DNA from: Halosimplex litoreum
Lineage (GTDB): Archaea; Halobacteriota; Halobacteria; Halobacteriales; Haloarculaceae
Reading direction: 5' to 3'
NCBI RefSeq assembly: GCF_016065055.1
Contig: NZ_CP065856.1
Location: 1,425,836 to 1,489,835, forward strand
DNA length: 64,000 nt
Shown piece by piece: positions 37-9,974 of this stretch (within the stretch, counting starts at the first letter, position 1; each line of letters starts with the position of its first letter). The notes beneath the pieces are model-generated. The model ran no database searches and was not told the DNA's origin. It worked only from the letters and a program-made list of their open reading frames with translations. The position numbers and the translations under genes were made by a program.

Positions 37-912
37 ATGAGCTCTGAGACAAGCTACGAGTCACGGACGGTCGATTCCGATCGGGATACGAAACGGGAGG
101 TACCACAGACACATCACGAACGAGACCGTGCCAGGGCCGGTAGCGCGAGTCTGCTGACGGTCGGCTATCGGGGCGGAGCGGTGCTACTGTTCGTGATAGC
201 GGTCGTTTCCGGAGGGGCCGCGTCGTTCTATCCCTCCGCTTCGGATGTGCTCGCTGCGCTCGCGGGAGTCGGGGTGGTCGGGGCGGTCCTCTGTATGGTG
301 CTTTCGAGCGGTGTTCGCCACCCCGTCGAAGTGAGCCAGAGCCTCTACGAGGCGACCGCCGACAACAGGGCCGCGATCGTGGATCACTTCGCCGTGACCG
401 GTCATCGGACGTACGTTCCGACGGGCGAGCGTCCGGTCGACGCGCGGTTCTACGTCGGCGGGGCGATGGACCAGCCCGTCCCGCCCGCCGAGAACCTCGA
501 CTCGGTGGTCGTCGACTCCGACCGCCGCCAGGCGCTGTCGCTCGTTCCGACCGGTCGCGGCCTGGTTCGCGACTTCGAACCGTCGGTCGCGGATCTCCCC
601 GAGGAAGACAGAGCGGTCGTACAGGCGCTGCTCGAAGGCGTCACGGATTACTACGAGCTCGCGGAATCGACGGGGCTCGAACGGATCGCCGACCTTGACG
701 TCGCGGAACGGAGGCGAGTCACGGTCCGGGTTCGGGGAGCGACGGTCGGCGACCTCGGTAGACTCGATCACCCTATCCAGTCGTTCATCGGAGTCGGCCT
801 GGCGGTCGCGACGGGGGGGCCGGTCGAATCCGAATCGACCGTGAAGGAGGGGACGGCCTACCTGTCCTTCGAGTGGAACACGAACGGCGACGCGTCGAGA
901 GCGACAGAATGA
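37..912 (+). CDS. Membrane protein of unknown function, coupled to the lasso cyclase
   Basis: 291 residues. After a charged N-terminal stretch of about 40 residues there are two hydrophobic segments (roughly 45-65 and 69-90), then an acidic soluble domain of about 200 residues. I do not recognise a family. The stop codon overlaps the start of the lasso cyclase in an ATGA arrangement at 909-912, so the two are probably translated together. This suggests a role with the cyclase, for example as a membrane anchor, scaffold or immunity protein; that role is inference only. The gene starts 37 nt into the window, so any further upstream cluster genes are not visible. Confidence 0.75.
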   Translation: MSSETSYESRTVDSDRDTKREVPQTHHERDRARAGSASLLTVGYRGGAVLLFVIAVVSGGAASFYPSASDVLAALAGVGVVGAVLCMVLSSGVRHPVEVSQSLYEATADNRAAIVDHFAVTGHRTYVPTGERPVDARFYVGGAMDQPVPPAENLDSVVVDSDRRQALSLVPTGRGLVRDFEPSVADLPEEDRAVVQALLEGVTDYYELAESTGLERIADLDVAERRRVTVRVRGATVGDLGRLDHPIQSFIGVGLAVATGGPVESESTVKEGTAYLSFEWNTNGDASRATE

Positions 913-2786
913 GCGGGATCGTCGCGCTCTTGGATCGCGGCCGTGGCGGTGTCGATCCCGACCTGAAGGCGATGCACGAACGCATCGACCATCGGGGCCC
1001 CGACGGGGAGGGAATCTGGTGTGATGGTCCCGTCGGGCTAGGCCACCAGCAGCTCCGTTCGACGCCGGAGGCCGAACACGACGACCAGCCGTGTCGTGAC
1101 GGCGCGGTCGTCGTCACCGGCGATATCCGTCTCGACAACAGAGCGACCTTGCTGGACGCGCTCGACGTCGCGAACGGCGGGAAACCGATTCCCGATAGCC
1201 GGCTGGTGCTCGCGGCGTATCGGCGGTGGGGCGAGGCGTGTCCGGACCATCTCGTCGGGTCGTTCGCGTTCGCCCTGTGGGACTCGGCGGCCGGGCGCCT
1301 GTTGTGCGCCAGGGACTGCTTCGGCGTCAAGCCGCTGTACTATCACTCCAGCCCCGATACCTTCGCGGTCGGCTCGGAGGCGAAGGCACTCCTCGCACTC
1401 CCCGACGTCGACCGAACCCTCGACGAGCGGAAGGTCGGCGACCTCCTCACTGGAACGTTCGAGGACAAAGAGCGGACGTACTACCGCGATATCCGCCGAC
1501 TTCCGCCGGCTCACGCGATCAGTGTTCGCAGCGACGGTAGCCGGCTGTGGCAGTACTGGGACCTCGACCCGACCGACAGCGTCACTCTCGGGTCGGACGC
1601 CGCCTACGAACGGCGGTTCCGGGAGCTGTTCGAGCAGGCCGTCCGCTGTCGACTCCGAACCGACGGAACCGTTGGAACCGCGCTGAGTGGGGGGCTCGAT
1701 TCGTCGTCGATCACGGTCGTAGCCCGTGACCTGCTGTCGTCGGCGGATCCGCTTCTGACCTTCTCGAACGTGTACGACGACGCTCCGACGAGCGACGAGC
1801 GGGAGTTCGTCGAACGGGTGACCGAGCGCGCTGGGATCGACTCACGGTACGTGTTCATGGACGAGGTCGGGATGCTCGACGACCGTGAGTCGATGGGTTG
1901 GCACTACGACCAGCCCCCCCACGATACGATGCACCACGCGATCTGGGAGCGGATGAAGCGTGCGGACGAAGCGGGCGTGAACGTCGTCCTGGAAGGCGCC
2001 CTCGGAGACAGTGCTACCGGGTACGGGCTGGGACTGATCCCGGAGCTGCTGCGGACGGGGCGATGGGGACGACTCGCGGCGGAGATCCAGGCGATCTCGG
2101 AGCGTGGCGGGGCGCCGAGACATCGGGTCTTCCTGCACCACGCCGTCCTTCCGCTCGTTCCGCCCGCAGTGCGCCGAACGTATCGACGGATCCGCGACGA
2201 GCCCGTGCTGGCCGAGCGGAAGAACCCGACGCTTCGCCCGGCGTTCGTCGACCGAGTCGGTCTCGACGAGAAACTTCGGGAGCGGTATGCGACCGGTTCG
2301 GTACTCAGGGAGACGGCTCGGCGCCGCCAGTGTCGGTCGCTCACGTTCGGAACGATCACCGCGAGCCTCGAAACGACCGATCTGGTCGCCGCTGCCTTCG
2401 GCGTCGAGCCTCGCTACCCGTTCACCGACAGGCGACTCGTCGAGTTCTCGCTGGCGATGCCGCCGACCCAACAGCTCTCTGAGGGGTGGACCAGGTCGAT
2501 CATCCGACGGTCGCTCGCCGACCGCCTCCCCGAGGAGATCGGGACGCGCGTGTGGAAGACCGATATGAGCCAGGGGTTCTGGAACTCGCTCGCTCGAGAA
2601 GACGACCGACTCGAGCGCCTCGTCGCCGACCCCGGCCCGCTCGAGGACTTCGTCGACCAGGACGCGCTGCGAGCGGCCCACGAACGGTTCGCCGAAACCC
2701 AGAGCACCCGTGATGCGCGAGCACTCTGGCGCGCACTCTCGCTCTCGACGTGGATGAAGACGTGGGCCCACACGAGCGGTCAGTGA
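909..2786 (+). CDS. Lasso peptide cyclase (asparagine synthetase-like, C protein)
   Basis: 625 residues. The N-terminal half resembles the class II glutamine amidotransferase domain of asparagine synthetase, but the mature start is MSGI instead of MCGI. The catalytic Cys2 is therefore replaced by Ser and glutaminase activity should be absent, as is usual in lasso cyclases. RGPDGEG lies near residue 29. The synthetase half has the PP-loop SGGLDSS at about 260-266, which binds ATP. In lasso pathways this enzyme adenylates an Asp or Glu side chain of the core and joins it to the new N-terminal amine. The start at 909 is chosen over an upstream in-frame ATG because of the ATGA overlap and the family N-terminus. 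The assignment as cyclase rather than an ordinary AsnB rests on the lost Cys2 and the neighbouring B1, B2, exporter and precursors. Confidence 0.88.
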   Translation: MSGIVALLDRGRGGVDPDLKAMHERIDHRGPDGEGIWCDGPVGLGHQQLRSTPEAEHDDQPCRDGAVVVTGDIRLDNRATLLDALDVANGGKPIPDSRLVLAAYRRWGEACPDHLVGSFAFALWDSAAGRLLCARDCFGVKPLYYHSSPDTFAVGSEAKALLALPDVDRTLDERKVGDLLTGTFEDKERTYYRDIRRLPPAHAISVRSDGSRLWQYWDLDPTDSVTLGSDAAYERRFRELFEQAVRCRLRTDGTVGTALSGGLDSSSITVVARDLLSSADPLLTFSNVYDDAPTSDEREFVERVTERAGIDSRYVFMDEVGMLDDRESMGWHYDQPPHDTMHHAIWERMKRADEAGVNVVLEGALGDSATGYGLGLIPELLRTGRWGRLAAEIQAISERGGAPRHRVFLHHAVLPLVPPAVRRTYRRIRDEPVLAERKNPTLRPAFVDRVGLDEKLRERYATGSVLRETARRRQCRSLTFGTITASLETTDLVAAAFGVEPRYPFTDRRLVEFSLAMPPTQQLSEGWTRSIIRRSLADRLPEEIGTRVWKTDMSQGFWNSLAREDDRLERLVADPGPLEDFVDQDALRAAHERFAETQSTRDARALWRALSLSTWMKTWAHTSGQ

Positions 2787-4135
2787 CCCACGACTGACGT
2801 CGTGGGCTTGTCAGTGGACTCCCCTTCTGCCGCCGAATCGACGGAGGCGTGGAACTCGCCGTTCAGGCTCAGCGTCCCTGACGTCAGCGCACACTGACAG
2901 AGTGCGCCTCCACTCGAAGACGTCTGCCCCGAGTGGAGTCGCTCGAGCAGTTTGCGAGCGATGTTCTTGCTCGCGTTGTAGTCCGCATTCAGTTCGTACT
3001 CGCACTGCTGGCAGACGAGCTGGTGTTTCGACCGCCTGTTTATTTCGTGGGTGAACCCGCACTTCGAACACCGTTGACTCGTGTACGATGGACTTACCTG
3101 CGCGACCTCGAGACCGCACATCTCGGCTTTGTACTCGACGTACTCGAACAGGCGTCGGAACGCCCAGGCGTGGAATCGCTTTGCACCAGCCATCCGGTCA
3201 CGAATATCGGTCAGGTCCTCGAAGGCGATATGCGTACAATCGTGGTCGCGAGCCTCGTCGAGAATCCGATTCGACGCGCGGTGTAATTCGTCCTGCATCC
3301 AGCGGTGTTCGCGGTCTTCCATCGACTGGATCGATAAGTGCGCCGACCGCGTGCCCGACCGTTGCATCGACCCGCGCGTCTTTTCGAACTCTCGGCGTCG
3401 GTGGGTCATCTCGTCGGCCTTCCCGACGAACGCGCCCGTCGAAGTCACGGCGAGCGAGCCATCCACGTTCAGGTCGACACCGAGGACTGTTCTGTGCTTG
3501 GCGTCCTCAGAACGCGAAGCGTTCTGATGGGCTGCATCAGACCGTGTCTGATGAACGTCTTCAGAAGGAGTCGTTGACGGCTCTTGGTCGTCTCCCGTTC
3601 GGCGCATCCGTGTGTGGAGATAGAACGACTCCGTGGAGCGGTCGTACTGGAGCGTCGAGGTGCGGAACTCGTAATCCTCGTTCAGTAGGTACTCGCCAAT
3701 CGGCGTCCCCTCGGCGTCGTCGGGCAGCACGTAGTCACACTCGAGGCGACCGTTCACGGTCGAGAGCGAGACGTGGTCGCGGTAGAACGTCGCGGCACGT
3801 TTGTCGTAGACGACGCTCCACGCGTCGAAGTGCCGTTGGCTCGTGGTCTCGCCCTTCTCGCGTCGGGCGACCCCGCTTTTGGTCGCCTCGATAGCGCGTC
3901 GGATCCCTTTCTGGACGAGGTTCGCGGTTAACTCCGTCTCGTCGCGAAGTTGCTCGTAGAGGGCGTTCTCGGCCGTTCGCTTTGAACTCACGCAGTAGGC
4001 GTTCGGGTGTCTCCACGCCCACGCTGCGGTAGTGTTCGCACAGTGGAGGAACTGGTCGTTGGTCCGATGGAGGTCCTCGCACCGCCCGTCGGGTACGTCG
4101 AGTTCGACTTTGACAGTGCGGATCACATCCTCCAT
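2780..4135 (-). CDS. tnpB: RNA-guided endonuclease TnpB
   Basis: 451 residues. The N-terminal part resembles the TnpB helical and wedge region. The RuvC-like domain has all three acidic residues: Asp221 (VLGVDLNVDG), Glu306 (IAFEDLTD) and Asp385 (ELNADYNASKN). A zinc ribbon is formed by Cys356/Cys359 and Cys375/Cys378. A low-complexity insertion sits at about 183-214. The protein therefore looks catalytically intact. TnpB proteins bind an omega RNA derived from the 3' end of their own gene and cut matching DNA next to a short flanking motif, which helps retain the element. The ORF ends inside the last codons of the convergent cyclase gene (7-nt overlap). No TnpA is present, so movement would need a transposase elsewhere. 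Confidence 0.93.
   Translation of the reverse strand: MEDVIRTVKVELDVPDGRCEDLHRTNDQFLHCANTTAAWAWRHPNAYCVSSKRTAENALYEQLRDETELTANLVQKGIRRAIEATKSGVARREKGETTSQRHFDAWSVVYDKRAATFYRDHVSLSTVNGRLECDYVLPDDAEGTPIGEYLLNEDYEFRTSTLQYDRSTESFYLHTRMRRTGDDQEPSTTPSEDVHQTRSDAAHQNASRSEDAKHRTVLGVDLNVDGSLAVTSTGAFVGKADEMTHRRREFEKTRGSMQRSGTRSAHLSIQSMEDREHRWMQDELHRASNRILDEARDHDCTHIAFEDLTDIRDRMAGAKRFHAWAFRRLFEYVEYKAEMCGLEVAQVSPSYTSQRCSKCGFTHEINRRSKHQLVCQQCEYELNADYNASKNIARKLLERLHSGQTSSSGGALCQCALTSGTLSLNGEFHASVDSAAEGESTDKPTTSVVGH
2787..2806 (-). other. Terminal hairpin of the tnpB element (candidate omega RNA end)
   Basis: A perfect 8-bp stem (cccacgac/gtcgtggg) with a 4-nt loop lies just past the tnpB stop. In IS200/IS605 elements the omega RNA covers the 3' part of tnpB and runs to the right end, with the guide taken from the flanking DNA. 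If that holds here, the guide would match the 3' end of the cyclase gene. No RNA evidence is available from sequence alone. Confidence 0.45.
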
Positions 4136-4307
4136 CTGTAGGAGACACTGCCGCGTATTTGGGTATAAAGTCTCGGCGTGGTAGGGGAGTCAGTCTCCTC
4201 TCGCTCGTGGATTGAACCGAACGGTATCGGATTCCTCCCACGGCTTGAGCCGTGGGCTTCCTCCTCGCATCTCTGTGAACTGACTTCACGCCCGTATCGG
4301 AGCAACC

Positions 4308-4337
4308 TTAATTATAGAAAGCCAACAATTCGGTGAT
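4308..4337 (+). promoter_or_regulatory. Promoter and ribosome binding site of precursor 1
   Basis: An AT-rich TATA-like box (ttaattata, 4308-4316) lies about 30 nt before the ATG at 4343. GGTGAT at 4332-4337 matches the haloarchaeal anti-Shine-Dalgarno sequence and lies 5 nt before the start. Together these decide the start of the precursor and show it has its own promoter, independent of the cyclase and of the inserted element. Confidence 0.6.
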
Positions 4338-4342
4338 GGGTC

Positions 4343-4504
4343 ATGACAAGAGACACGGGTGACTACGGTGTACCTGAACTGACCGAATACGGGTCCGTTG
4401 AGGCAATCACGGAACAGCAATACAACAAAGACGGCACGTCGACCGACCAGTACACCGACGACACGAACGGTGAGATCGTGGGCTCGACCAGCCCGTATCC
4501 CTGA
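4343..4504 (+). CDS. Lasso peptide precursor 1
   Basis: 53 residues, not a long ORF. The leader has the lasso recognition pattern Tyr8-x2-Pro11-x-Leu13-x3-Gly17-x5-Thr23 that B1 proteins bind. The second half has N-K-D-G, then T-D-Q-Y-T-D-D-T, and ends VGSTSPYP. The core start is not obvious because the usual Thr at position -2 would leave no Asp or Glu at core position 7-9. Two registers give a 9-residue ring: Tyr27 to Asp35, or Gly31 to Asp39. The gene sits between the tnpB element and precursor 2, on the cyclase strand. It shares most of its leader and the T-D-Q-Y block with precursor 2, so the two are paralogues. Confidence 0.85.
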   Translation: MTRDTGDYGVPELTEYGSVEAITEQQYNKDGTSTDQYTDDTNGEIVGSTSPYP

Positions 4505-4641
4505 CTCGTCGTCGGGTCGAAGCCGAGACCGTGCTGTCGTGACAGTCTGGTTTCCACGACAGCGCTGTGGGCCCTGCCGGGCCCCGTTCGGATGCCACTA
4601 TCGTCGCTTGTGGACGCTTCCGATTAGATGTCACTGTCGAG

Positions 4642-4700
4642 GCGCATTCGAGATCCGAACGATGGGCGGATCCGATCCCGTCGTTTACTCTCGAATGCGC
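4642..4700 (+). repeat. Inverted repeat between the two precursor genes
   Basis: A perfect 12-bp inverted repeat (gcgcattcgaga at 4642-4653, tctcgaatgcgc at 4689-4700) with an inner 5-bp pair (aacga/tcgtt) would fold into a long hairpin. It lies in the 308-nt gap between precursor 1 and precursor 2 (4505-4812), which holds no other convincing gene. A GC-rich short inverted repeat (gggcc/ggccc) lies nearer precursor 1 at about 4568-4585. Either could end the precursor 1 transcript or act on precursor 2 expression. Confidence 0.55.
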
Positions 4701-4778
4701 GGCAGATCACCGTTCACCAGTCGTTGGTCGTCGGTCACATATTCGTTCCCTCGGGTCACGATCCAGTTCCTACGCTAG

Positions 4779-4787
4779 TTTTATATT
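4779..4787 (+). promoter_or_regulatory. TATA box of precursor 2
   Basis: ttttatatt lies with its centre about 30 nt before the ATG at 4813. This spacing fits a transcript starting at or very close to the start codon, as is common in haloarchaea. It indicates that precursor 2 is transcribed separately from precursor 1. Confidence 0.6.
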
Positions 4788-4812
4788 GATCGACAGGAAC
4801 GATCCAGTTAGG

Positions 4813-4971
4813 ATGACGCGTCAGCAATCCAACAGCGAGTACACGTCGCCCCAGATGACCGAATACGGACCCGTCGAATCGATCACCGAGCAGTCGAACA
4901 AGGAGGGAGGGGCGACCGACCAGTACAGTGACAACACTCCGCTCGTCGGTTCGATCTCGCCCGCGTCGTAA
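4813..4971 (+). CDS. Lasso peptide precursor 2
   Basis: 52 residues. The leader pattern is Tyr10-x2-Pro13-x-Met15-x3-Gly19-x5-Thr25, nearly the same as in precursor 1 (both share TEYG and an ITEQ segment). The core half has N-K-E-G, then T-D-Q-Y-S-D-N-T, and ends VGSISPAS. Ring candidates are Ser28 to Asp36 or Gly32 to Asp40, each giving nine residues. The C-terminal residue is Ser52, which matters because a lasso-kinase-like gene lies 58 nt downstream on the opposite strand, and known lasso kinases modify a C-terminal Ser. The start is set by the leaderless-type promoter; a longer in-frame ORF upstream is not supported. Confidence 0.85.
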   Translation: MTRQQSNSEYTSPQMTEYGPVESITEQSNKEGGATDQYSDNTPLVGSISPAS

Positions 4972-5029
4972 CGTACCATCGCTTCTCGTCGGTCGATTCG
5001 ATCCACCCGAAGAGACGTATCGGTCGGCG

Positions 5030-5944
5030 TCACCCCTCTACGAGTCGACCACACCGCGCGTCTTCGACCACTTTTTCGACCAGTTCCGGGAGTCGGTCGT
5101 GATCCCGAGGGCGCTTCAACACCCGGAACACAGCGGTATCGACCACGCGCGAACAGTGCTCGAAGTGAGTCTGGGACTGGGCCGTGTCCGAGAGCAATCC
5201 GCGCGCGTGCGTGCGAGAAACGAGTCCGAGCAGCTTCTCGTGACCGTCCAACGCCCCGAAGCCGAGGTGGTCACCGCGCTGGAGTTTGAAGCAGCGAGTG
5301 AGGGGGACGGGCTCGGGGATCTCGGACACCGACAGATACTGTTTTTCGTACCACGACTCCTCCGACGGGGTGGACCGGTCCGTGACGTTCAGTGCCACCG
5401 CGGCGTCCTCCCGCAAGCGTAGCTGCGGGACGCCGGGGAGGACCATCGGGGTCCCCGAGTCGAAACGGATCCCGACTACGTCGTCCTCCAGCATCGGGTA
5501 CCCCTCGAGTTGCATCGCCGTCGCAGTGGTCGACTTCCCCGCTCCACGGGGTCCGAGGAACACGACCCCGTTTCCGTCGACGGCCACCGCGCTCGCGTGC
5601 AAGACGAGGTTGCCGCGCTGGTGGAGCAAGAGCCCGATCATCTCGTTTTCCAGCAACCGCCGAAACAGATCCCGTTCCACGAGGTCCTCGGAATCCGGAT
5701 CACAGACGACGCGTTCACCCCCTTCGACCAGAAACGACCCGATCGTGTCGTACGAGAGCCGGCAGGTGCCGGGAGCCGCTGCGATCCGACGACCGTCGAA
5801 CGCTTCGACCGTCTCGGCGACGGCTGTAACCTCCCCGAGACGGAATTCGACGTCGACGCTCGCGGGCTCGTCCGGGAGCGACGGGAGTTCGGGGAGCGTG
5901 AACTCGGACCGGATCGTGAGGTCGTACGCGGAGTAATAGTGCAT
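5030..5944 (-). CDS. HPr kinase-like lasso peptide kinase
   Basis: 304 residues. The C-terminal half is an HPr-kinase/PEP-carboxykinase-like fold with LHAS at about 115-118, the P-loop GPRGAGKST at 131-139 and an acidic LEDD at 152-155. The N-terminal part is a divergent beta-rich domain. HPr kinases proper act in bacterial sugar control; here there is no HPr and the gene lies between the precursors and the exporter. In bacterial clusters such as that of paeninodin, a homologous kinase phosphorylates the C-terminal Ser of the precursor. Precursor 2 ends in Ser. The substrate is inference. Its own TATA-like box lies at 5984-5993. Confidence 0.8.
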   Translation of the reverse strand: MHYYSAYDLTIRSEFTLPELPSLPDEPASVDVEFRLGEVTAVAETVEAFDGRRIAAAPGTCRLSYDTIGSFLVEGGERVVCDPDSEDLVERDLFRRLLENEMIGLLLHQRGNLVLHASAVAVDGNGVVFLGPRGAGKSTTATAMQLEGYPMLEDDVVGIRFDSGTPMVLPGVPQLRLREDAAVALNVTDRSTPSEESWYEKQYLSVSEIPEPVPLTRCFKLQRGDHLGFGALDGHEKLLGLVSRTHARGLLSDTAQSQTHFEHCSRVVDTAVFRVLKRPRDHDRLPELVEKVVEDARCGRLVEG

Positions 5945-5983
5945 TGGCGCCCTCTGTTGTCGACTCAGAACACCGTTGCGCGC

Positions 5984-5993
5984 AATTTAAAAC
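5984..5993 (-). promoter_or_regulatory. TATA-like box upstream of the kinase
   Basis: The minus strand reads ttttaaatt about 40-50 nt before the kinase ATG at 5944. This suggests the kinase has a promoter of its own, although it also lies downstream of the exporter on the same strand, so read-through is possible. Confidence 0.35.
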
Positions 5994-6068
5994 TGCCTGC
6001 CCCGACCCCGTGACGGCGGTCGTAGCACCCCATAGCTGGTATCGGATCCGTGCCCCACGAACGATAGT

Positions 6069-7856
6069 TCACGATTGTGTGACGTAGAGTTCGGCGTAGG
6101 TTCCGTCTCTCTCGAGCAGTTGGTCGTGTGTTCCGGTTTCGGTGACCGATCCGTCCACCAGGGTGTAGATACGGTCGGCGCCGTCGACCGTCGAGAGTCG
6201 GTGTGCGATGCTGATCGTCGCGTACTCCGACTCGAGCGAGCGGATCCCCTCGTAGACGGTCTGTTCGATGTTCGAATCGAGTTCGCTCGTCGCCTCGTCC
6301 AGCACCAACACGTCGGCGTCCTTCAACAGGGCTCGGGCGATGGCGACCCGTTGTTTCTGGCCACCGGACAGGCGTACCCCGTCCTCACCGAGTTCCGTCT
6401 CGTACCCATCGGGTAGCTCCGGGAGAAATTCGGTGACCTGCGCGGTTTCGCACGCTCGTTCGATCGCTCGGTCGGACGCGTTTCGGTTCCCGATCGAGAC
6501 GTTTTCCCGCAGACTCCCGTCGAACAGGAACGGGTCTTGACGGACGATAGCGAGGCGCTCGCGCCACTCGCGGACGTCGAGGTCCTCGATCGGTGTCCCA
6601 TCGGCGCGGATATCGCCCGAATCCGGCACCTGTAGGCGGCCGAGCAGCGCGATAACGGTCGACTTTCCGGCGCCCGACGGCCCGACCAGTGCGACCGTTT
6701 CGCCGCGTTCGACCGAGAACGAGACGTCGTCGAGAACCCGTTCACTGCCCCCATAGGAGAACGAAACGTCGTCGAAGTCGACGCGCTGTACCGTCCGGAT
6801 CGACCGGTCACCCCCGGTAGCCGGTGTCTCCCGTTCGGCGAGTGACTCCAGTCGGTCTCGAACCCGGAGGAGGTGCGGGAGTTGCCCGTCTAGCGTGTAC
6901 AGGCGGTTGTTGATCTGATTCACCACGGGCGACAGTCGAAATATCGCGAAGAGGAACACGCCCAATCGTGCGATCGAGAGTGAGGTCAGTCGGAACCCGG
7001 CGTAGACGAGTCCGAACACGACGATTACGTTCGCGAACTGGTTGAGATTCTGCAGCGCAGCCTGATTTCGGCGGAGTCTGACGTTGCTGGCGACGTATCC
7101 GTCGAGCGACTCGTGCATCCTGTCGACGAACTCCTCGCGCATGTTGAACAGCCGAACGTCGCGTGCGCCCTGGAAGCTAGCCTGCGAGAGCGTCTGGAGT
7201 TCGTCGTTGATGTTCGCGACCTCGTCGCCGACCGCGTACGCCGGTTCGAGGACGTACCGGACGAGCAGAGTGCTCACGGTGAGACTGGCGACGGCGACAG
7301 CAGTCAGCGCCGGTGACAACAGCGTGGCCAGGATCAGGTAGACCCCACCCCGCAGCACGACTTCGGTAATGTTGAACGTGGCCATGACGATGCCGGCGGC
7401 CCTGTTCGTCTCCGTGATGAAGCTGTTCAGGAGATCGTCCGACCCGACTTCGTCGATGTAGTCGACTGGCCCGTACATCAGCGAATCGAACAGCCGTTCT
7501 CGGAGCTCACGCTGGTAACTCACGCCGAGGATAGCCCGGAGCCAGCCGCTGACGAAACTGAGTGCGAACCGGAGAAACATGACACCACCGAGACTCACGA
7601 TCAGCGATTCGAGGGTGAGGGGGATCCCGAACCACCCGTAGACTCGAACGAACAGGCCCAACGGCCCGTCGGCGTCGTGCGGGGACGGCGACTGCGTGAT
7701 CTCGATGATGGGCAACAAGAGACCGAGCCCGACCCCCTCGAGGAGCGCCGCCGAGAAACTCACGACGACGACCCCTGCCCCGAGCCACGGTCTGAACTGG
7801 GCCGCCTGGTACACCGCGGACACTTTGTCTCGGAGTGTCGGATCGGCTCGTGTCAT
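6069..7856 (-). CDS. ABC exporter, probable lasso peptide exporter (D protein)
   Basis: 595 residues from MTRADP. About six membrane segments fill residues 25-310. The nucleotide-binding domain has Walker A GPSGAGKST (392-400), signature LSGGQ (496-500), Walker B VLVLDE (516-521) and a switch His in IAHRLS. It is a half-transporter of the MsbA/lasso D type that would work as a homodimer and export the mature peptide. The start at 7856 is preferred over an in-frame start at 7934 because GGTGAG precedes it at a normal distance. It is followed by the kinase and preceded by the B2 peptidase. Substrate assignment rests on context; it is also the likely self-resistance function. Confidence 0.85.
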   Translation of the reverse strand: MTRADPTLRDKVSAVYQAAQFRPWLGAGVVVVSFSAALLEGVGLGLLLPIIEITQSPSPHDADGPLGLFVRVYGWFGIPLTLESLIVSLGGVMFLRFALSFVSGWLRAILGVSYQRELRERLFDSLMYGPVDYIDEVGSDDLLNSFITETNRAAGIVMATFNITEVVLRGGVYLILATLLSPALTAVAVASLTVSTLLVRYVLEPAYAVGDEVANINDELQTLSQASFQGARDVRLFNMREEFVDRMHESLDGYVASNVRLRRNQAALQNLNQFANVIVVFGLVYAGFRLTSLSIARLGVFLFAIFRLSPVVNQINNRLYTLDGQLPHLLRVRDRLESLAERETPATGGDRSIRTVQRVDFDDVSFSYGGSERVLDDVSFSVERGETVALVGPSGAGKSTVIALLGRLQVPDSGDIRADGTPIEDLDVREWRERLAIVRQDPFLFDGSLRENVSIGNRNASDRAIERACETAQVTEFLPELPDGYETELGEDGVRLSGGQKQRVAIARALLKDADVLVLDEATSELDSNIEQTVYEGIRSLESEYATISIAHRLSTVDGADRIYTLVDGSVTETGTHDQLLERDGTYAELYVTQS

Positions 7857-8034
7857 TCCGAACTCACCGTCACGGCGCAACTGTTCCGGAACCCTCGCTT
7901 CGACTCCGGCGGGTGGACCCGCGTTCGCGCACACCGCCTGCGCCCGATCGAGTCCGACACCGACGTCTTCAGCCGTCGAAGGCCCGATGATCGACCGTCC
8001 GTCGTGATGCTACTCATCTCTCGAGGATATCCAA

Positions 8035-8481
8035 TTAGCGTTCATTTCCGGTGCTTATCGGTGGGAGCGGTTCGTACTCCTCCAGATTGTCTACGTCTCC
8101 GATCAGCACTTCACCTTCGAACTCGATCCAACTGTGGGCTCTGACACTGTCGGACGAGTCTCTGTCGACGCCGATCCGGTGTTCGAACGAGTGGCCGTAC
8201 GTGCGAAGCAGTACCTCCGCGGTCAGCGAGCGGACCAGACAGGTTCTGGTCCCCGGCACCCACGAATCCGCGACGTCCACCGCCGCGACCACCTGACCCG
8301 CGGTCGGTGTTCCCGGAACGACCAGGGAACCGACGTCACCGGTTCCGGCCAGTACCGATCTGAGCCGATCGAAAGAGACGACGACCAACCCTCCCCAGAT
8401 GGCGACCAACAGCCCACTCGCGACCGCGAGTCGAAGCTTGTCGCCAGGTGGGGCCGAGACGAATCGTTTCACCCGGTCCAT
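8035..8481 (-). CDS. Lasso leader peptidase (B2, transglutaminase-like)
   Basis: 148 residues from the ATG at 8481; a GTG at 8487 would add two. The transglutaminase-like Cys-His-Asp triad is visible: Cys in TCLVRSLTAEVLL, His in AHSWIEFEG and Asp in LIGDVDNLEEYEPL, which is the normal spacing for lasso B2 proteins. Its role is to cut the leader from the precursor, exposing the amine used in ring closure. A hydrophobic segment near residues 16-36 suggests membrane attachment, which may bring processing close to the exporter. It directly follows B1 with almost no gap, so the two are one operon. A gap of about 180 nt separates it from the exporter. Confidence 0.88.
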   Translation of the reverse strand: MDRVKRFVSAPPGDKLRLAVASGLLVAIWGGLVVVSFDRLRSVLAGTGDVGSLVVPGTPTAGQVVAAVDVADSWVPGTRTCLVRSLTAEVLLRTYGHSFEHRIGVDRDSSDSVRAHSWIEFEGEVLIGDVDNLEEYEPLPPISTGNER

Positions 8482-8490
8482 CGGCACACG

Positions 8491-8781
8491 TTACGGGTCG
8501 TCGACGACCCGAGCGAGGTCCTGTTCGACTAGTTCGTCGACCAGAGATTCGATATCCGACCGACATCGCTCCCGTTCGACGTCGTACTCGTTTTCGATCT
8601 GCTGTGTGATCTCGACCATCGACCGGGGTTCCTGCATCGCCTCCCAGATCCTGGTCCCGACTTCGTTGAACCCGAAGTACTCTCCCGATCCCGTATGCAG
8701 GATCACGGACTCTCCATCGAGTGTCGTCGAAAGCGCGTCTTCGACCGCGACGACGGTCGTCGAGTCCGTATAGTCGCCCAT
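8491..8781 (-). CDS. PqqD-like lasso leader recognition protein (B1)
   Basis: 96 residues, the usual size for a stand-alone PqqD/RRE protein. It shows the PqqD pattern: an N-terminal strand region, ILHTGSGEYFGFNEVGTRIWE, then a helical part with VEITQQIENEYD and a C-terminal helix rich in Leu and Val. RiPP recognition elements bind the precursor leader and present it to B2. It is the first gene of the leftward B1-B2 unit and has an upstream TATA box. No catalytic residues are expected. Confidence 0.87.
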   Translation of the reverse strand: MGDYTDSTTVVAVEDALSTTLDGESVILHTGSGEYFGFNEVGTRIWEAMQEPRSMVEITQQIENEYDVERERCRSDIESLVDELVEQDLARVVDDP

Positions 8782-9233: not shown

Positions 9234-9974
9234 ATGAACGAAGACACGGCGACGAACGCAGAGCAGCGTGACTCCGACGAACGACTGTGGCGGCGCAGCT
9301 TCCTGAAGGTCGGGGCCGTCGTCTCCGCGGTCGCGACGTCCGGGTTCGGGATGAGCGGGGTCCTCTCGAGAGACGACACCGGGTCCAGGTCGGGGACCGA
9401 CACCGACGCTCGCTTCGGCTACGGCGGGACCCCCGTCACGACGACCGTGGCAGGGAAGAGGCCGGACGTCGGCGGAACGACGGCGGCCGACGGTACCGTC
9501 CCTACACAGGCCGATAGCACTGCGACCGCCGAGACGGTCGGTGATACGGCGATCCCGTCGGTATCGACGACAGCGATGCCGACCGCAGTCGGGGCCAGGA
9601 GCGAACCCCCGACGCCGACCGCGACCGGAACGACCGAGGCGACGTCGACGGCGACCGAGGAGGGGGAGAGCGGCTCCGGCAACGTCGGTGGTACAGACGG
9701 TTCGGAACAGGCGTCCACCGGAACCGCCCCGTCGACCCCCGCTCCGACCACCGCGGAGTCGTCCCCACAGACGTCCAACGAATCCGAGACCCCGGTGGAA
9801 ACGGCGACCGATACGTCTGCGGCGATGGAAACGTCGACAGCTGCCCCCGGTGAGTCCGGGACGTCGACCGGGACCCCGACTCGGGCCGCCGAACCGACGG
9901 CGGCTCGGAAACTCGCCGACGAGTACGGTGAGCAGGGGTACGGCGAGTACGGGTACGGCGGTGTCCCGCCGTAG
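9234..9974 (+). CDS. Tat-exported Ser/Thr-rich protein with Tyr-Gly C-terminus
   Basis: 246 residues. Arg20-Arg21 in WRRSFLKVGA followed by a hydrophobic stretch is a twin-arginine signal. The body, about 60-220, is low-complexity Thr/Ser/Ala/Pro/Glu, typical of a glycosylated cell-surface linker. FGYGGTP follows the signal region, and the C-terminus is rich in Tyr-Gly (EQGYGEYGYGG) and ends VPP. I see no catalytic domain. GGTGAG at about 9221-9226 supports the ATG at 9234 over a GTG at 9222. It faces away from the lasso B1-B2 operon. Whether it belongs to the lasso system is unknown; it may be a surface protein with a sorting or assembly motif at its end. Confidence 0.75.
   Translation: MNEDTATNAEQRDSDERLWRRSFLKVGAVVSAVATSGFGMSGVLSRDDTGSRSGTDTDARFGYGGTPVTTTVAGKRPDVGGTTAADGTVPTQADSTATAETVGDTAIPSVSTTAMPTAVGARSEPPTPTATGTTEATSTATEEGESGSGNVGGTDGSEQASTGTAPSTPAPTTAESSPQTSNESETPVETATDTSAAMETSTAAPGESGTSTGTPTRAAEPTAARKLADEYGEQGYGEYGYGGVPP

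Follow-up and report, generated by a model that had tools for sequence, protein, structure and literature searches.

A probable paeninodin-like lasso peptide gene cluster in the haloarchaeon Halosimplex litoreum and its family of precursors

Gene content of the locus

The window, by which we mean the whole stretch of 64 kb of Halosimplex litoreum DNA analysed here, carries a compact set of genes and signals near its beginning:

37..912, + strand: membrane protein of 291 aa, function not assigned; open reading frame whose stop overlaps the cyclase start
909..2786, + strand: lasso peptide macrolactam cyclase (C); NF033535, tree, motifs, dN/dS 0.19
2780..4135, - strand: TnpB-family RNA-guided nuclease of an IS200/IS605-type element; NF040570, 164.8 bits
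2787..2806, no strand: terminal hairpin of the TnpB element (CCCACGAC-TGAC-GTCGTGGG); sequence and fold
4237..4256, no strand: terminal hairpin of the TnpB element (CCCACGGC-TTGA-GCCGTGGG); sequence and fold
4308..4317, + strand: putative TATA-like box before A1 (TTAATTATAG), found by eye
4343..4504, + strand: precursor A1; leader motif, dN/dS 0.21
4779..4786, + strand: putative TATA-like box before A2, found by eye
4813..4971, + strand: precursor A2; leader motif, dN/dS 0.11
5030..5944, - strand: HprK-like peptide kinase (K); TIGR04352, PF07475, motifs
6069..7934, - strand: ABC exporter (D), permease and ATPase fused; PF00664, PF00005
8035..8487, - strand: B2 leader peptidase, transglutaminase-like; NF033537, 84.0 bits (cut-off 33)
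8491..8781, - strand: B1, or RiPP recognition element, PqqD-like; PF05402, 71.4 bits
8818..8826, - strand: putative TATA-like box before B1, found by eye

An earlier note, made from the DNA letters, had described a complete archaeal lasso set here, and cyclase, B1, B2, exporter, kinase and two precursors are indeed all found between 909 and 8781. The archaeal host is likewise borne out, the closest named relative being Halosimplex carlsbadense, with 89-90% identity in the cyclase. The list of genes given by that note stands; it omitted the TnpB gene, the gene at 37-912, a nucleotidyltransferase 18 kb away and a polysaccharide locus.

B1, B2, exporter and kinase lie on the strand opposite to the cyclase and outside its operon. 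The usual order in other genera is B1-B2-C-A facing K-D, while in the window and in H. carlsbadense (locus L031) B1 and B2 are placed past the exporter; gene order in the two species is identical and both precursors are kept. All seven pathway genes have dN/dS values of 0.11-0.28 between these species, indicating purifying selection, as an average across their whole divergence that leaves room for a very recent loss in the strain. The end of the gene at 37-912 and the start of the cyclase share 4 nt (ATGA), and homologues of the protein encoded at 37-912 lie close to 9 of 17 other lasso loci as compared with 1 of 20 control regions. Searches of this protein against Pfam and NCBIfam profiles gave no match, and its AlphaFold model (pTM 0.36) was too weak for use. 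On the far side of the cluster, the gene at 9234-9971 encodes a protein with an RRSFLKVGA-like N-terminus, a long Thr/Ser/Pro-rich stretch and a Gly-Tyr-rich C-terminus (GYGEYGYGGVPP); it adjoins the lasso genes in H. carlsbadense too and is evolving faster (dN/dS 0.52).

The TnpB gene, intact, sits between cyclase and precursors and is not part of the lasso pathway. H. carlsbadense has no such element: homology between the two species ends at 2778 and picks up again at 4274. It is a lone TnpB element of about 1.5 kb (2779-4273) with hairpin ends. The insertion falls precisely on the 3′ end of the cyclase gene and has replaced the last residues of the enzyme, giving an altered C-terminal tail.

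The cyclase and its distance from AsnB

The cyclase combines Asn_synthase and GATase domains and scores 601.8 bits against the curated NCBI lasso cyclase model NF033535 (cut-off 525). Its N-terminus, MSGIV, has Ser in place of the glutaminase Cys2, so that the nucleophile that is the hallmark of AsnB is absent, as the earlier note had observed, while the ATP motif SGGLDSS is intact. In a tree, a branch supported at 100/100 separates the window cyclase and 30 other sequences devoid of Cys2 from 18 Cys2-bearing AsnB-type enzymes, among them the AsnB of the same genome (C1:156612-158279); the 18 haloarchaeal cyclases, that of the window included, make a clade of their own, again at 100/100. Closer kinship with AsnB had been named in the earlier note as one of the findings that would overturn the claim; the comparison was run, and the claim survives, as the 100/100 clade excludes every AsnB tested. 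The lasso cyclase cut-off was not attained in any of 185 gammaproteobacterial genomes, 139 of which contain AsnB-like matches. The C-terminal end of the protein is variable among relatives. An AlphaFold model of the cyclase (pTM 0.40) was too weak for use.

Leader processing, tailoring and export

The best relative of B1 in the PDB by sequence is TbiB1 (5.9e-11), a lasso B1 of known structure, which together with the PF05402 match upholds the earlier assignment as PqqD-like. B1 is the predicted reader of the YxxPx[LVI] leader, as judged by its homology and by the YxxP present in both precursors. The Cys-His-Asp catalytic set proposed for B2 is in place (TC.., HSWIE and IGD), in line with an NF033537 score well above its cut-off; a sequence search of the PDB with B2 gave no meaningful relative. 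The ABC exporter is also confirmed by its two domains.

The kinase is more diverged. Its profile scores stand under the curated cut-offs (36.9 bits for TIGR04352, 21.9 bits for PF07475), and a PDB sequence search returned weak HprK matches only. Its motifs are nevertheless intact, with the LHASAV His, the Walker-A GPRGAGKS (GxxGxGKS) and EDD making a complete His-Lys-Asp-Asp set, and the lasso kinases characterised so far cannot work without their His, Walker-A and Asp-Asp residues (PMC9266682, PMC10368454). The kinase of the earlier note is a distant relative of HprK. It is found with 16 of 17 cyclase-bearing relatives and belongs to the usual tailoring equipment of paeninodin-type clusters.

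Two precursors of a haloarchaeal family

Both A1 and A2 carry the YxxP leader, as expected of the two paralogous lasso precursors reported earlier, and the leader-plus-core motif has 2 matches in the 64 kb window and none in 60 shuffled windows. A1 scores 22.8 bits against the lasso peptide model NF033528, under the cut-off of 33. The TATA-like box before A1 lies outside the TnpB element and is similar in H. carlsbadense. In A1 the leader ends with T(23), followed by the linker EQQ and the predicted core YNKDGTSTD-QYTDDTNGEIVGSTSPYP, with a predicted ring from Tyr1 to Asp9; in A2 the conserved T is followed by the linker EQ and the predicted core SNKEGGATD-QYSDNTPLVGSISPAS, with a predicted ring from Ser1 to Asp9.

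Using the leader motif alone, we collected 26 cyclase-linked haloarchaeal precursors, all of which have Y..P in the leader, T at Y+15, K3 and D9. The family core can be written X-[N/D/E]-K-x(5)-D, and A1 and A2 belong to it. This core motif was fitted after inspection of the precursors, and the independent check is a MAFFT alignment of 23 of the 26, made without motif input, in which Y, P, G, T, K, D and a tail G are invariant and the gaps fall between the leader T and the core. Position 1 of a lasso core is usually Gly; in A1 it is Tyr and in A2 Ser, and across the family it is Asn, Gln, Ser, Thr or another residue, rarely Gly.

Size of the ring and site of cleavage

We consider a ring of nine residues closed on Asp9 to be the better supported architecture, and a reasonably probable one. 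Placing residue 1 two positions before the conserved K puts Asp at position 9 in 26 of 26 precursors, a numbering that hinges on the predicted cleavage site. Other ring acceptors were rejected, as no acidic core position besides Asp9 is invariant. Given this ring, the leader Thr, a conserved recognition element of characterised systems (PMC10368454, PMC12670498), stands exactly at -2 in 11 of the 26 precursors, the others having 1-4 additional residues between Thr and ring start; A1 has two (Thr at -4) and A2 one (Thr at -3). Because the spacing from K3 to D9 is invariant (26/26) while that from T to K varies, the family suggests a fixed ring preceded by a flexible linker. This arrangement is further favoured because cleavage always at Thr+1 would need rings of 10-13 residues, beyond the 7-9 of known lasso peptides (PMC10368454, PMC6784204).

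The competing model keeps a real lasso cluster and has B2 cutting one residue past the leader Thr, with larger rings (11 residues in A1, 10 in A2) or an N-terminus trimmed before cyclisation. Recognition of this Thr in known systems and the constant Y-to-T spacing observed here speak for it; the K3-to-D9 distance, fixed while T-to-K differs, and the known range of ring sizes make it, in our judgement, unlikely. The two models differ in mass: the calculated [M+2H]2+ values are 1454.1256 (A1) and 1239.0750 (A2) for products with a nine-residue ring, against 1582.1842 (A1) and 1303.1042 (A2) after the Thr+1 cut; in this charge state each phosphate would add 39.983 and each hexose 81.026.

Phosphorylation and the polysaccharide neighbourhood

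That the kinase phosphorylates A1 and A2 is likely. The known sites are the C-terminal Ser for PadeK and PsmK (PMC9266682) and Ser3 for BsfK (PMC10368454). Neither is available in A1, since it ends in Pro and has Lys as residue 3. A2 ends in Ser, and most relatives end in a residue other than Ser. In 22 of 23 aligned precursors a G-S pair is kept inside the chain, close to the C-terminus, and we tentatively put forward its Ser as the kinase site.

A gene for a protein of the NTP_transf_5 family, single copy in the genome, lies outside the window, 18 kb upstream of the cyclase. Of 17 other loci with a cyclase, 13 have a gene of this kind nearby, as against none of 20 control regions. The Fisher values of such comparisons are indicative only, because the controls are arbitrary regions taken in part from genomes that also supplied lasso loci, and because these loci are interrelated. 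In bacterial clusters the nucleotidyltransferase PsmN has been linked to hexose addition (PMC9266682). The gene adjoins DUF1616 and a polysaccharide flippase, and glycosyltransferases and sulfatases occupy the gap to the cyclase; sulfatases are near 7, and glycosyltransferases near 4, of the 17 other cyclase-bearing loci. The region directly upstream of the window (L111, C1:1405900-1425899), with DUF1616, NTP_transf_5, flippase, two GT4 glycosyltransferases and sulfatases, has the makeup of a surface-polysaccharide locus. In Bacilli, too, clusters of the kinase type have been reported to lie inside capsular polysaccharide loci (PMC13381572).

Comparison with known systems

With its kinase, and with a nucleotidyltransferase gene 18 kb away, the cluster resembles those of paeninodin and pseudomycoidin (PadeK, PsmK, PsmN; PMC9266682). 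They have in common with it A, B1, B2, C, D and an HprK-type kinase with the His-Lys-Asp-Asp set; a nucleotidyltransferase gene lies near the cyclase in most relatives, and here at the distance just given. The haloarchaeal clusters differ by their archaeal host, by a conserved Ser that is internal (G-S), by an A1 that ends in Pro, and by a core X-[ND]-K-x-G-x3-D whose first residue is neither Gly nor Ala. The cluster would therefore work as those of the paeninodin type do, without being a strict member, because A1 and most relatives lack the C-terminal Ser. The bsf system of Bradymonas (PMC10368454) likewise has the kinase, B1, B2, C and D, together with a nucleotidyltransferase; there too, the leader end departs from the usual, and phosphorylation of Ser3 by BsfK tells us that the kinase site need not be C-terminal. 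There, however, Ile takes the -2 position with normal spacing and a Gly1-Asp8 ring, whereas here Thr is kept at an altered spacing and Lys takes position 3. Metanodin (PMC12670498) has a nine-residue ring and a non-classical first residue, Asn1, thus providing a precedent for Asn1, but it comes from a bacterial soil metagenome, has Thr at -2 and is unlike our peptides in the rest of its core.

The cluster is not a new kind of system, because genome mining had brought lasso clusters of archaea to light before: the earlier note, seeing in it a strong candidate for an undescribed system, went too far. Archaeal lasso genes were mentioned in 2019 (PMC6784204) and lassopeptide clusters in 2025 (PMC12144867), an antiSMASH lasso cluster of Halopiger xanaduensis was cited in 2023 (PMC10093198), and NCBIfam already has models for the lasso cyclase, for B2 and for the lasso leader. 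In the literature searched, which left out most subscription papers, we found no lasso product from an archaeon that has been characterised. The locus of H. xanaduensis SH-6 is on plasmid pHALXA01 (L061/L081), the only match when plasmids were searched with B2. It has the same gene set, a cyclase with 62% identity, NTP_transf_5, sulfatase and flippase nearby, and a precursor (L061 12342-12503) with the same core motif; it differs by having B1-B2-C in a single run, the exporter on the other side and one precursor. The search for conserved archaeal clusters that the earlier note had advised found a B2 match in 33 of 391 sampled Halobacteria genomes (20 of 86 genera), about 15 of them with a full cyclase cluster.

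Proposed pathway and its alternatives

Taken together, these observations make it very probable that the locus is a functional, paeninodin-like lasso peptide cluster. What the sequences themselves establish is which genes are present, that their catalytic residues are in place, where the cyclase falls in the tree, that leader and core are conserved, and that selection is purifying. Counted against this reading are the offset Thr of A1 and A2, a position 1 that is not Gly, a kinase under its cut-offs, an A1 that does not end in Ser and the presence of TnpB between C and A. By analogy with characterised lasso pathways, from which we infer every step, B1 would bind the YxxP leader of A1 and A2; the kinase would phosphorylate a core Ser of the linear precursor, the near-invariant G-S Ser near the C-terminus being the best candidate; the NTP_transf_5 enzyme encoded 18 kb upstream could possibly extend this group with a hexose; B2 would remove the leader; the cyclase would adenylate the Asp9 side chain and join it to the new N-terminus, the tail being trapped in the nine-residue ring; and the ABC exporter would release the product.

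Three other explanations have to be weighed against a functional lasso cluster. The cyclase just passes the AsnB model TIGR01536 (273.6 bits for a cut-off of 267.1), and a polysaccharide locus adjoins it, so that it might be taken for an AsnB-type amidotransferase of that locus, the small open reading frames being unrelated; with Cys2 lost, a lasso clade separated at 100/100 from all AsnB tested, and with B1, B2 and two precursors carrying the leader as conserved neighbours, this identity was rejected and is hardly credible. It is also improbable, though somewhat less so, that the cyclase does not act on A1 and A2 and that the pathway yields a linear phosphopeptide of the Bacillota kind. The linear polyphosphorylated peptides (LPPs; PMC13381572) share with the window the YxxP leader, B1, HprK kinase, NTP transferase, MsbA-like exporter and the link to polysaccharide loci, and sister haloarchaeal clusters have an identical set without the cyclase. 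LPPs, however, are made with an SpI-type peptidase and without a cyclase, whereas the window has B2 and an intact cyclase, conserved beside A1 and A2, with an invariant acceptor Asp.

There remains the prospect of a cluster decaying in this strain, the TnpB element having broken the cyclase-precursor unit so that the peptides are no longer made. The position of the element and the swapped final residues of the cyclase would fit; but every frame is intact, dN/dS is 0.11-0.28, the TATA-like box of A1 is kept downstream of the insertion, and the C-terminal end of the cyclase differs among relatives anyway, and we see decay as a slight chance.

Returning to the functional cluster, one may venture a broader proposal, speculative and as a whole rather unlikely. 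In it, the haloarchaeal lasso peptides would form a family in which the junction of leader and core is flexible and the ring begins with Asn, Gln, Ser, Thr or Tyr; an internal Ser would be phosphorylated, and perhaps glycosylated, and the peptides would serve a conserved function connected with the surface-polysaccharide locus around them rather than act as rapidly diversifying antimicrobials. The conserved cores, the purifying selection and the link with the polysaccharide locus mildly argue against a fast-evolving toxin. What is added here is a family of 26 haloarchaeal precursors with a conserved core that makes the ring predictable. With explicit cores, masses and a competing cleavage model, a single expression experiment could yield an archaeal lasso peptide, and the same experiment could test how far lasso enzymes tolerate a variable distance between leader and core. 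The polysaccharide link, which has been reported for the kinase-type clusters of Bacilli as well, is a lead on the role of such phosphopeptides.

Related loci

About 15 haloarchaeal genomes (L044, L045, L048, L055, L058, L064-L074) have B1, B2 and HprK kinase around lasso-leader precursors, with NTP_transf_5 at 16 of 16 loci and the exporter at nearly all, and no cyclase above the lasso cut-off was found genome-wide. These loci are possibly the archaeal counterpart of the Bacillota linear phosphopeptides, B2 replacing the signal peptidase. In ten species of one genus they encode the peptide MKEYETPSVETYGTVEEKTNWWDHDDGYGKWS, differing at most in the last residue. Three leader-bearing small open reading frames are found in L069 (10333-11778) and six in L055 (14926-18629), with near-identical leaders and short cores that differ. 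Finally, L033 (15206-17185) and L063 (4480-6567) contain a second cyclase, which is diverged and is accompanied by a B1, a kinase and a precursor of its own, the core of the latter being Gly/Asn-rich (YTTPEVQKLGAVAEITEGRHFSRVDGNSGTTGNRG...); this unit has a lasso unit of the main type on either side.
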